A DNA stretch of 64,000 bases from Oryzias latipes (Eukaryota; Chordata; Actinopteri; Beloniformes; Adrianichthyidae), in the NCBI RefSeq assembly GCF_002234675.1, contig NC_019866.2, positions 8,957,261-9,021,260 of the forward strand, read 5' to 3'. Both the position numbers and the translations under genes were made by a program. The notes under the pieces are model-generated. The model was not told where the DNA came from. It worked only from the letters and a program-made list of their open reading frames with translations, and ran no database searches. Shown here piece after piece: positions 3,840 to 34,317 of the stretch; the stretch's first letter is position 1, and the number at the start of each line of letters is the position of its first letter.

Positions 3840-15246
<11,407 letters not shown>

Positions 15247-29217: not shown

Positions 29218-29287
29218 CAGTCAAGATCCCCTGGGACAGAGACAGATTCATATAATATGAACCCCCTCTGTTCATCTTTAGCTTATA

Positions 29288-29293
29288 AATAAA
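29288..29293 (+). terminator. Poly-A signal of the second myosin gene
   Basis: aataaa lies 71 bp after the stop. Less than 350 bp further on are minus-strand poly-A motifs (tttatt at 29338 and 29618) that could serve the convergent gene ending at 29964, so the two transcripts end tail to tail. Confidence 0.65.
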
Positions 29294-29299
29294 TGAACT

Positions 29300-29960
29300 A
29301 TACTTGAAACAAATTCCGTGTATTGTTCATTTACTTCTTTATTGTGGTCAGAGTCAATAATAGCTGAAGATGTCTTCAGGCAAGATGCTGTATATTCTTT
29401 GAGTGCTTGTCAGTCTATCACAAATCACCTCATCTCATAAAACTGTATGAGAGTTAATATAAGACAAAGATAAATAATCAGTCATATCATTGCTGTAATT
29501 CAAGTTGTAACATGTATTAATGCTCTTTCATTTGAGGCTGCAGCGTGGGGAGGCTGGTTACAAATTTAAATCAAACATTCAAACGAAATTAAGACCTTTT
29601 CTGTTTGGTATTTTGCTTTTATTATTATACATCTTCATTATCCTACCTTAACACGAGTCACAAGAGCACTGGGCTTACTTACACATGATGACAACAGTAA
29701 AACAGATAAACACAAAACATCAGTTTGATCTGGAATTTTCAGAAAACAGAAAGTAAGTTCTTCCCCCAGTCTACATTTTAAGCAACAAACTAAAACACGT
29801 TCTAAATTCTATGTAATTAAAATAATTGAACTAAACTACTGTTAGGTCATTTTAACTCGTAAAAAATTAAGTATTTTTTTACACCAATACAATAACTTTC
29901 ATGTTTTACTTAGGTTAGCTTGCCTCTGTTTATAATGCACACTTTCACAATTGTCAATTG
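29300..29960. other. Convergent 3' spacer
   Basis: Lies between the end of the second myosin gene and the stop codon of the minus-strand GoLoco gene. It is AT-rich and non-coding; much of 29620-29960 is probably 3' untranslated region of the minus-strand gene, given the tttatt at 29618-29623. Confidence 0.5.
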
Positions 29961-29963
29961 CAG

Positions 29964-32900
29964 CTATTTTTTCTTATCTTTCTTTCCACCTCCCTTTCCC
30001 TTTTTTTGCTCAGCCTTTTCCTTTCCCAGAGTGGCTGCAGCTTGTTGTCTCCCTTGAGCCTTTCCTTTTTGCAGCTGGACTGTAGGTAGCTTCTCAGTCA
30101 GTGAAGTGTCCTCCTTTGGAATGATAACGCTGGTTAAAAGTTGTTCCTGTATATTTGGGCATGAGGTGACAAGATTTACTTTGGTAGGTGCTTCACGGTA
30201 GGGAGATGATGGCCGTGAACGGGCTTTCCTGGGACTTGCACGGCTTGGAGAGCAGTGCTTGGATTTACCATCCTTTTTTGGAGTGAGATTTAAGTCTAGG
30301 GACAGGGGTCTGCCAAATACTGGACTCAAAGGTATATTTACACTTTCTCCTGGGGAACCAAGAGTGAGAAAAACTTCTGGAATCTGATAGTTATAATTCG
30401 GACCCTTCAAAAGACAAGAATATTCAAGTAAGAGTTAAAGAAACTTAAAAACTGCAAACAATGAATCTTCTGTTGAAAAGCTTACTGGTGGTGGGGTGAT
30501 GCTCATGGACACCTTTAAGGTCAGCTGTACAAAAAGATAAAAAAAGAAATAGGGATGCGCTGAAACATTTATCATGAGTTTTTAATCTGTTGCTAGGTTA
30601 AATATTAAATTCAATTAAGGAAAACAAAGAATTCTGGAACCTTGTATACAACCACACACATGAATTTCTAATACAACCTGCATAACAGAAGTCTAAAATG
30701 CCCAGTTTAACAACATCATCAAATTGGAAATTTATATGTTGGAACTTTAATGATTTTTTTCTGCTATTGAGCATTAGTGATCACAAAGATTTGTGCTGTT
30801 GCTCAGTTGTTGTTTTTCTAGTAAAACCCTTCTTTTAAAAATAAATGGAATTGCCAAATTAAGTGTACCTGTGCTGATGAAGGAGGATCCTGTTGAAATT
30901 CTGTTTCTGGGGTAAATGATGCAGATTTGGGGAGAGCCAAAGCAGAGCTGGAGTCTAGATGAGGCCACTGGGTCTCAGAGGTACTCCTGGGACAGTACTT
31001 TCTGGATGTGTCCGGTGTACCTTTATCCACAGTAATTTGTGGTGGAGAGACCTACAAAAGAACAAATTATTCAGTGTATTTTATTTGTAGAAAAAATTAT
31101 TTCTTAAAATAGTAATCTATTAATTAAATAACACAAGGCTTTTTACTATGCACCAAAAACAGTGTCAAGAGGATTCTCTTTTTGGCAAAATACAGATAAT
31201 GCATGATATACACCAAGATTTGTTATAGATATTGCTTCACTTGTTCAAATACAGGTATTCAATCTGAAAATATATAACATATTATTATATTTTTTTTAAC
31301 AGTAAATATTTTTTTATGTGTAAATAAAGTGGGTTAGGTTAAGTGGTCAGTGTGTGTACCTCTCTCTTCTGAGTGATACACATGAACTAGCTGAATTTTG
31401 CATCATCTTATAAAATATTTGTATTGTCAGAGTAATTATGGCTTAAATTCTGAAGAAACCTAATTTATAATTAAATGGCATTCAACAGTTCTTTATTTAG
31501 CGGCTTGCAAGAAAATAATCAAAGAAATACTTCCACCTTTCTTACATAAACCCTTCATGTAAATGCAATAAAAAGGAAAGTCACACAATTTACAAAGATT
31601 TATTCAGAACTAACTGAAAACATGCATATAATGTTTGCTTATCTTTATCACATATAAAATCTTACTTACAAGGATGTCAGTCTTTGAGTTTCTAACTTTA
31701 TCTTTTGTTTTAGACTTTTCACTTTTGTGTGCTGGGGCAGAATGATCAATGTGTTGATCATCTGGTTTTCTAGAAGAAGCCGTCTTCCTGAATGCATCCG
31801 TTTGTTCATCTGTTGAAGAAAATTAAGGATTATTTCTAACACTATAGGAAACAACAAACGCATATTTGGCACATCAGGTGGTTTCTGACCTATTGATACA
31901 TAATTTAAAGCGTTTCCATTATATGTTGGTGAGACAGGGTTGCTTTGGCTGGGTTGTAAAGAACACCGTTGTTCCTCCATGCGTCCACTCTGAGCATGTT
32001 TAAGCATTTTTAACAACTGTTCCTGTTCAACTGGGCATAAGTCCTACATGAGTAATACAAAAAGAGGAAACAATTATTCAGATATGACATAATACTGATA
32101 GCGCCATAAAATGAATGTAATTATTTTTTTATTGACCTAAAAAAAGAATTGTGGAATTGAGAACATACTAATAATAATAAAAAATAAACTGTTAAACAGA
32201 ACAACTGACCTGCCAATAACAGTCACTTTTAAAGGAGCCAGACCTCTGTCTCTGAAGAGGCTTGACAGTTGTTTCTGAGGTAACATCTTTGCATTGAGGA
32301 GAGGGAGTACCCAGATTCTTGAGAATTTGAGGTGCAGAACATCTCTGTTCATCCATTCTTCCGCCCTGTGAGAAGAAAAGTGGTTGTCCTAATGTTAGCT
32401 GTGTAAAGGAAAATGAACACAATTTCAAAGTGTGGATCCGCCATTCTACGAGGGGAGCTAACCTGGACTTTTGAAACAAGGTAACACAAGTAATTTGCAT
32501 CTGTTTCAGCAGAAGTTAGTGATGTGCTGCCACCATTCTGTATCCCAGGTAATGAAGGAAGAGATATCCGCTGGTCATCAAGCCGTCTGCTTTGAACATT
32601 GGACAGCAGGCTAAAGAACTGCTCACTGTCTGGGGGTATATATGGTAGGTTTCATTATCATAAAACAGATCAATCAGATTAATATGAGCACTAAAATCAC
32701 ACACAAAATGCCAAACATGTTTACATGCTTCCAACCTTGGGGGACTTTGCTCTGACCAAGTTGGTGTTTTGTGGTGGTTTGGGGGCTAACATTTAACACA
32801 CATCGCTGTTCATCCAATCGACCGCCTTGCGAGTGACTCACTAAACTGAAAAAATCCTCAAGGTCAGCTTCAGACAAGGCCTAAGCAGGACAAAAATAAA

Positions 32901-34317
32901 ACACATTTAAAAGGGCTGTGTGTGCCAATGGTCCACAGGCACAAAAAAGGAGAAACCTAAACTTACTCTAACAAGGTGGATGATATTTGTTCAACGTGTA
33001 AGGTAGAGAAGTCAAACCTGTTTTGCAGGTGCTTTATCTTTATCATTCAGGTGTTGCTTGTCTGAGCTCGGAATGTAGGAGGTTGAACAAGAAGGCTTTA
33101 GACTTGAAGTAGATTTCTGAATCTCTGGCAGGGAACACCTTTGATCATTCAATCTGGAATCCTATTTTGGAGCAACATTTTTCTTAGCACAGTTTTCCAC
33201 AGAACAAGCATTAAAATACAAGTTTATTCATAATAAGGAGTGTTAGAAGTATACAATTCAATAAGTTGTTTTTTAGTTTGTTTTTTGTTGAAACCACATT
33301 TAAAGAATCATACAAACCTGAACTTTCGAGACCATATAACACAAGTAGTTCGAGTCTCCATTAGAAGTGTTACTTTCCTTCTGTAATCCTGGTAATGATG
33401 GAAGAGACACACGCTGGTCATCAAGCCGGTGACTCTGAGTGTGGGCCAAAAGGTCAAAAAAGGTCTCAGGATCTAAAAGTACAGAAGACACACATCTTTC
33501 AAAGTTAAAGTGCAGTTTAACTGATTTTGAATTTGTCTGCAGATGTACCATAAAATAAAATAAAAAGTAAAAAAATATATATATGAATACTGACATTTAT
33601 TTAGAAAATTAAAACAGAAAAATATCTACTTTCAACCTGCTGCCCATCTGCATGCAGGGGTGAACATGGAGTACTTCTGCTAGGATCCAAGATGCAGCAC
33701 TGGTCCTCCATGCGTCCACGTTGGCCATGAGTAATTAGATTCATAAATTTATGTTGTTCCTCTGGGGATTCCTCCTTATTTTAAATAGAATTTTAAGGAA
33801 ATAAATGGGGATAAGCAGGAATTCGCAATATTTAAAAACATCAGTGTAATATAGATGGACTAAACAGACCCTTAAAGAGTTGGAGCGTATGCGCTGTGGT
33901 GGCATCAGCAACTGACTGGCTGGTACCAGCAGATGCTCTTTACTTCTCTCTGAGGTGCTCTGTCCAGAAGAATTCTCCTGTGCAGGACATTTATGTTTAC
34001 TACAGTCACGTTCCTGAGAGTAGAAAAGGAGGGAGAGTTCAGTTATTTAGGTAATCCATTCTCTGCACACGTAGCCACAAAAGCTTTTATACCAGAAGTT
34101 CAAATATATGTAGATTTAAACATAGTTCCAGTTCCAGTGTTATTTCCTATAAACAAATTTTATCCCTATGACTTTATTTTCAAACCTATAAATTTCAACA
34201 AAATCCTCAAATTATATTTCAATTGAAAACAAGCGTTTGATAAATTACACATCAGTAAACGGAATGTTATAGAAATCTTACATTTAGAATAGGGTTGTCC
34301 TTTCCACCAGATGCCAT
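29964..34317 (-). CDS. pcp2: Multi-GoLoco G-protein regulator, probable expanded Pcp2
   Basis: Thirteen exons (5' to 3'): 34282-34317, 33870-34013, 33630-33774, 33318-33472, 33018-33161, 32736-32880, 32463-32629, 32210-32365, 31890-32043, 31670-31809, 30869-31051, 30486-30524, 29964-30404. They join to 682 residues from ATG at 34317 (MASGGKDN). Seven GoLoco (GPR) motifs lie near residues 66-89, 109-132, 150-171, 213-237, 257-280, 302-323 and 370-393, with cores such as RLDDQR, RMDEQR and RMEEQR. GoLoco motifs bind Gi/o alpha-GDP and block nucleotide release. The C-terminal half is low-complexity, with a Ser/Arg/Pro stretch and a terminal poly-lysine tail (GGGKKDKKK). No TPR repeats precede the motifs, unlike Gpsm1/2. 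The [12 protein letters not shown] segment resembles mammalian PCP2, and stxbp2 and pet100 lie next door as I recall for human PCP2. Orthology is inferred; GoLoco content is seen. Confidence 0.8.

Follow-up and report, generated by a model that had tools for sequence, protein, structure and literature searches.

We analysed a 64,000-nucleotide stretch of the medaka (Oryzias latipes) genome (contig NC_019866.2 of assembly GCF_002234675.1, positions 8,957,261 to 9,021,260; hereafter the window, whose own numbering is used below), the minus strand of which is predicted to hold a gene for a protein with repeated GoLoco motifs. We consider it probable that this gene is a teleost Pcp2 (Gpsm4-type), a sister of Gpsm1/2/3 devoid of TPR domains, whose array of GoLoco motifs expanded as an ancestral Gpsm three-exon cassette was duplicated in tandem and whose product acts as a multivalent binder of Gαi/o-GDP. 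Within this proposal we infer the orthology to PCP2, the origin in a vertebrate whole-genome duplication and the expression of the gene.

The original prediction had placed a gene of 682 residues at 29964..34317, and the spliced model recovered the same coordinates and length. From the ATG at 34317 to the stop codon at 29964, a span of 4354 bp, the 13 exons encode exactly 682 amino acids; all 12 introns are of the GT-AG type (12/12), no stop codon occurs in the used reading frame of any exon, the start codon stands between aaag and a G, and the GC content is 0.38–0.54 in exons versus 0.23–0.42 in introns. The gene prediction is well supported and the architecture it describes is unusual. When the whole protein was compared with Pfam, GoLoco (PF02188) was the sole family at E ≤ 10, with an E-value of 8.8e-48 over seven stretches. 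Segments scored singly gave a GoLoco match in seven cases out of nine (21.2, 38.5, 26.1, 42, 36.3, 31.9 and 28.9 bits for GoLoco 1 to 7), and six of these seven scores lie above the curated Pfam cut-off of 25.1 bits, the first being below it. The two predicted relics, a segment of exon 10 and one spanning exons 10/11, had no GoLoco match in this single scoring. A D/E-Q-R triad with the GDP-contacting arginine is present in 6/7 motifs, which end in D-Q-R or E-Q-R, while motif 1 reads M-E-D-Q-C. The seven motifs announced by the original prediction are thus found as seven Pfam stretches and not as seven canonical motifs: motif 1 is both sub-threshold and DQC, and the tally is six motifs that look canonical, one without the arginine and probably two relics. 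With the window translated in all six frames, the core pattern R[MLI][DEN][DEG]Q[RC] has seven matches, all seven in this gene, versus two matches in total in 20 base shuffles of the same DNA, which rules out a chance origin of the motifs.

The intron phases 0-1, 1-0 and 0-0 recur three times over exons 3 to 11 (E3–E11), which seem to form three tandem A-B-C cassettes. In the first, exon A (E3, 33630..33774, phase 0-1) carries GoLoco 1 (33753-33688), exon B (E4, 33318..33472, phase 1-0) carries GoLoco 2 (33467-33402) and the first half of GoLoco 3 (33350-33318), and exon C (E5, 33018..33161, phase 0-0) carries the second half of the latter (33161-33129). The second cassette has the same phases and consists of E6 (32736..32880), with GoLoco 4 at 32859-32794, E7 (32463..32629), with GoLoco 5 at 32624-32559 and the first half of GoLoco 6 at 32495-32463, and E8 (32210..32365), with the second half of GoLoco 6 at 32365-32333. 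The third begins with E9 (31890..32043, phase 0-1), which holds GoLoco 7 (32022-31957), and continues with E10 (31670..31809, phase 1-0), a probable decayed GoLoco relic without Pfam match, and E11 (30869..31051, phase 0-0), which is probably decayed and has no GoLoco. We infer that two cassettes are complete and that the third, its B and C parts having decayed, retains the A motif only. The cassettes measure 444, 468 and 477 nt, all multiples of three. They are preceded by E1 (34282..34317, donor gtaaga), which contains the start codon and encodes 12 residues, and by an N-terminal linker exon, E2 (33870..34013, phase 0-0); they are followed by a 39-nt microexon, E12 (30486..30524, phase 0-0), and by E13 (29964..30404), which encodes the C-terminal tail with its lysine-rich end and contains the stop codon. 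The nine residue types P, S, T, Q, E, K, G, N and D account for 64% of the protein, and K/R for 13 of its last 40 residues, a composition that fits a disordered protein with a basic tail.

Pairwise comparison of the exon peptides (66 pairs of E2–E13, 500 shuffles) supports this arrangement. The pairs E3/E9, E4/E7 and E5/E8 scored 103, 168 and 62, each at the floor set by the 500 shuffles (p 0.002), and the peptides of E3, E6 and E9 are mutually similar. For the relics of the third cassette, seven focused exon-pair shuffle tests were run, in which E10 resembled E7 (score 36, p 0.0014) and E11 resembled E8 (score 43, p 0.006). Across 51 codons, E4 and E7 share 67% amino-acid identity; their dN of 0.27 is below their dS of 1.37, which suggests purifying selection. 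A very recent array could be ruled out: direct repeats of at least 24 nt amount to four short families (28–43 nt), and the E4/E7 dS is that given above. Separately, we noticed a 75% direct repeat between 30134-30165, in the coding part of exon 13, and 32010-32041, at the start of exon 9 (peptides CPNIQEQLL and CPVEQEQLL, respectively); it is perhaps a further trace of a cassette in the tail, or a chance likeness.

To place this structure among its relatives, we searched the medaka assembly (734,051,031 bases in 25 contigs, the window being C8:8957261-9021260) for GoLoco motifs and obtained 17 places. Genes of gpsm type lie on C17, C16, C12, C4, C9 and, with the window, C8; we take those on C12, C17, C4 and C16 to be gpsm1, gpsm2, gpsm2-like and gpsm3-like, respectively. 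One GoLoco motif each was found on C18 and C1, in what are presumably Rap1GAP genes. TPR matches precede the GoLoco exons on C17, C4 and C12, and none was found in the flanks read of the C16 and C9 genes. On C12, C17 and C16, exon A has phases 0-1, exon B 1-0, exon C starts in phase 0 and GoLoco 3 is split between B and C. The cassette of the window gene is therefore the same as that of gpsm1, gpsm2 and the gpsm3-like gene, both in phases and in the split of GoLoco 3. On C4, the phase of exon A agrees and exon B, judged by eye, is seemingly cut by a further intron; on C9, the acceptor was picked by eye and the incoming phase is uncertain. A search with the 682-residue protein placed 11 of its 16 genome matches within the gene itself, the other five being weak (E 0.038–0.64) and falling in gpsm genes, which rules out a second copy in this genome.

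Some of these relatives have features of their own. The gpsm-like gene of C9 (locus L013, minus strand, ~3345-3200) contains an in-frame TAA between GoLoco 3 and GoLoco 4 and may have lost its last motif. In the TPR-bearing gpsm2-like gene of C17 (locus L009, ~6560-6760), the core of GoLoco 2 is lost and the segment, which reads SGRRLEDSSAAGGSLPGLRL, has no Pfam match; GoLoco 1, 3 and 4 are retained. All four motifs are seemingly kept, as judged by eye, in the second gpsm2-like gene, on C4. The four-GoLoco gene of C16 (locus L010, ~6170-6865) has a BET gene 52 kb away, an arrangement like that of human GPSM3 and BRD2, both of which belong to the MHC region.

The lack of a TPR domain, another element of the original prediction, was borne out within the range covered: a TPR query had no match in the 64-kb window at E ≤ 1, and Pfam (E ≤ 1) detected no TPR in the 10 of 19 upstream minus-strand open reading frames (ORFs) that were scanned. 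Within this range TPR exons hidden upstream were ruled out. The absence of TPR domains in Pcp2 and Gpsm3 presumably reflects loss.

The neighbourhood of the gene gives a second line of evidence. A Sec1-family gene at ~36.1-42.1 kb of the window has STXBP2 as its best match among solved structures (387 bits, versus 368 for STXBP1 and 246 for STXBP3), and a BET gene at ~59.3-63.1 kb is closest to BRD4 (141 bits, versus 130 for BRD3 and 127 for BRD2). The nine neighbouring ORFs compared with Pfam agree with these assignments (Sec1 in 3/5, BET or bromodomain in 2/2, myosin tail in 1/2). In human, STXBP2 is the neighbour of PCP2, and the positions of GPSM1, GPSM2, GPSM3 and PCP2, at 9q34, 1p13, 6p21 and 19p13, fit one paralogous set. 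BET genes have been described in MHC paralogous regions and as duplicated before the radiation of jawed vertebrates (PMC5133849). Across the medaka genome, BET matches fell on C8, C9, C1, C16, C11, C12 and C4, that is on five of the six chromosomes with gpsm-type genes (hypergeometric probability 0.0027, or 0.0078 without C8, for 24 chromosomes, in a co-location test devised after the window had been seen). Sec1-family matches fell on C8, C4, C9, C12, C11 and C22, including four of the same six (C8, C4, C9 and C12). This sharing of BET and Sec1 genes suggests that Pcp2 is a fourth Gpsm, a TPR-less whole-genome-duplication sister of Gpsm1/2/3. On the other side of the pcp2-like gene, a plus-strand myosin gene ends at ~29.2 kb; this myosin heavy chain gene and the pcp2-like gene stand tail to tail (29218-29964), with less than 0.75 kb between their stop codons.

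Motif comparisons were made with human PCP2, GPSM1, GPSM2 and GPSM3 sequences. The A motifs of the window gene all scored best against GoLoco 1 of PCP2 (3/3), and its B motifs end in LPGxQ, as does GoLoco 2 of PCP2. In a tree of single motifs built without the human sequences, motifs cluster by position type (4 changes, versus a mean of 15.4 after shuffling, with 0/200 shuffles as low) and type B forms one clade (support 85/89), while 14 of the 24 inner forks are open. In a tree of cassettes, the two cassettes of the window gene group together (98/95). Another motif tree that included the human sequences and had few columns required three changes for the seven window motifs and placed GPSM3 GoLoco 1 on a long branch.

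Several observations weigh against the interpretation of the gene as a Pcp2 with a duplicated Gpsm cassette. The 13-exon chain is a prediction from the sequence of one species. Several of its splice sites are weak: the donors of E4–E7 (n = 4) begin with GTT, the E2 donor reads gtctgt, and pyrimidines make up a low share of the E3 and E5 acceptors (0.47 and 0.41). In motif 1 a cysteine takes the place of the arginine-finger residue, and this motif is probably impaired. As for the third cassette, E10 had no match to E4 (p 0.22) or to E3, E6 and E9 (p 0.10–0.32), nor E11 to E5 (p 0.36), and the evidence for E11 as a relic is modest, since E2 and E11, which are unrelated, gave p 0.018 in that comparison as well. 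The other four exon pairs say little on selection because their dS is at least 1.97, being infinite in two. The B motifs score higher against GoLoco 2 of GPSM1 and GPSM2 than against that of PCP2. In the single-motif tree, the A motifs of the window gene form one group (81/75), which stands on the gpsm C side of the tree and away from the remaining A motifs; weak forks put the C motifs of the window gene on the side that holds types D, B and A. In the cassette tree, the grouping of the window gene with human PCP2, represented by one sequence, reached only 77/87 and was present in 76% of the bootstrap trees. On the genome scale, C17 gave no match for BET or Sec1 genes and C16 none for Sec1; the Sec1 family includes Vps45 and Sly1 relatives, and only the C8 match was typed to an STXBP member, those of C4, C9 and C12 being matches at family level. 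Finally, the size of the PCP2 gene has been described as varying little among vertebrates, at 2137 bp in human, 2174 bp in mouse and 2821 bp in anole (PMC6792250); the window gene, at 4354 bp, is longer than these.

A rival reading is that the gene, though real, is mostly expressed as transcripts with fewer motifs, its in-frame cassettes being spliced in or out and the 682-residue form being rare or an artificial maximum. The cassette lengths and the phase 0-0 exons (E2, E5, E8, E11 and E12) mean that skipping would preserve the frame, and several donors are weak; on the other hand, all exons are open in the used frame, their GC content is 0.38–0.54 versus 0.23–0.42 for the introns, and the dN of E4/E7 is below dS. 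We regard a rare or artificial full-length form as rather unlikely.

Another possibility, on which the motif comparisons bear, is that the gene is no Pcp2 orthologue but a third copy of gpsm1/2, arisen for instance in the teleost duplication, whose TPR exons were lost. Its B motifs are best matched by GoLoco 2 of GPSM1, its exon phases are identical to those of gpsm1/2, and two genes that we take to be gpsm2-like already exist in the genome. Such a copy would leave unexplained the preference of all three A motifs for PCP2 GoLoco 1, the STXBP2-like and BRD4-like neighbours, with STXBP2 adjoining PCP2 in human, and the moderately supported joining of the window gene to PCP2 in the cassette tree. 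These same three observations sustain the Pcp2-like identity put forward in the original prediction, and we judge the gpsm1/2 copy improbable. The original prediction had also set against itself a grouping with Gpsm1/2 after TPR loss, and part of this is what we found, in the shared motif types, exon phases and GoLoco 3 split. This sharing does not speak against the Pcp2 label, since Pcp2 is then a member of the Gpsm family too. That the gene is decaying or a pseudogene, with the DQC of motif 1 and the lack of recognisable motifs in E10 and E11 as steps of loss, is very improbable given 13 open exons in frame, the start codon context, six intact triads and the E4/E7 dN below dS.

Considered as a Pcp2, the medaka gene shares with mammalian PCP2/L7 (GPSM4) the GoLoco-only layout without TPR and the position beside STXBP2. 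It differs in having 682 residues and seven motifs, versus ~136 residues and two motifs, as well as in carrying motifs of type C (GoLoco 3), more than one copy of the cassette and a lysine-rich tail. The small two-GoLoco form of PCP2 is thus not what the medaka gene encodes, and we count it as a variant, because size does not define orthology. With GPSM1 (AGS3) and GPSM2 (LGN/Pins), it has in common the GoLoco position types, the exon phases and the intron inside GoLoco 3; in the medaka genome, however, the GPSM1/GPSM2 genes have TPR upstream and at most four GoLoco, whereas the window gene has no TPR match, more than one cassette and no type D motif (GoLoco 4) after GoLoco 3 in exon C. The claim that it is distinct from Gpsm1/2 consequently holds for the layout and not for the origin, the motif types, phases and GoLoco 3 split being shared with gpsm1, gpsm2 and the gpsm3-like gene. 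GPSM3 (AGS4) is likewise a TPR-less multi-GoLoco protein; the GPSM3-like C16 gene, with four motifs and the same phases, differs by its single cassette and by its place near another BET gene. Rap1GAP, RGS12 and RGS14 share the GoLoco motif and differ by carrying a single one beside a catalytic domain. The medaka gene is therefore a variant within the Gpsm/Pcp2 family, not a new kind of gene. Among the literature matches listed, a search whose scope excluded subscription papers and gene-annotation databases, we found no seven-GoLoco protein or fish Pcp2 of such kind; a public gene model for it may well exist already.

The mechanism that we propose starts from an ancestral Gpsm cassette in which exon A would encode GoLoco 1, exon B GoLoco 2 and the first half of GoLoco 3, and exon C the second half. 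Tandem duplication of this unit would have enlarged the array, and the third cassette would then have been reduced to its A motif. By analogy with the family, the product would be a chain of short helices, disordered over most of its length, that binds Gαi/o-GDP. The binding of several Gi/o alpha subunits suggested in the original prediction is plausible. The arginine finger and binding cleft of GoLoco motifs, and their canonical action as guanine nucleotide dissociation inhibitors on Gαi/o, have been reported (PMC12329598). Each intact motif would insert its helix into the switch II/alpha3 cleft and place its arginine onto GDP, which together would slow GDP release and prevent Gα from pairing with Gβγ again; one molecule, having six intact motifs, could hold as many as six Gα-GDP. 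For Gpsm2, the loading of several Gαt-GDP through the GoLoco motifs and the binding of Frmpd1 through the TPR domain have been described (PMC9581579). Without TPRs, the medaka protein would recruit neither NuMA, Inscuteable nor Frmpd1 and would escape TPR autoinhibition. Because TPRs are absent, it would serve as a freely moving buffer or scaffold, which its lysine-rich tail perhaps keeps near the membrane, and in all would be a free binder of Gα-GDP, multivalent through as many as six sites.

In the dendritic spines of Purkinje cells, mouse Pcp2 co-localises with Gαo; it was reported to promote the release of GDP by Gαo and to modulate how Go inhibits P/Q channels (PMC6585000). PCP2 is also high in rod bipolar cells, where a retinal splice form was reported to speed the light response via the mGluR6 cascade (PMC11269129). 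We tentatively suggest, as a possibility and not as an expectation, that the medaka protein is a Gα-GDP sponge: a constitutively open, TPR-free Pcp2 taking up as many as six Gαi/o-GDP would set the pool of free Gβγ and the speed of recovery in fish ON-bipolar or Purkinje-type neurons, its valency having been built by stepwise duplication of cassettes and tuned by motif loss.

The number of GoLoco motifs is known to alter biology, as in the echinoid AGS protein, where one added motif has been tied to micromere formation (PMC6706577). A natural TPR-less protein with six intact motifs would separate the loading of Gα-GDP from the recruitment of spindle complexes, and would offer a means of studying how multivalency by itself affects Gβγ signalling. 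For the family as a whole, our results suggest a simple origin of Pcp2 and Gpsm3, as TPR-less sisters of Gpsm1/2 within one paralogon of BET and Sec1 genes.

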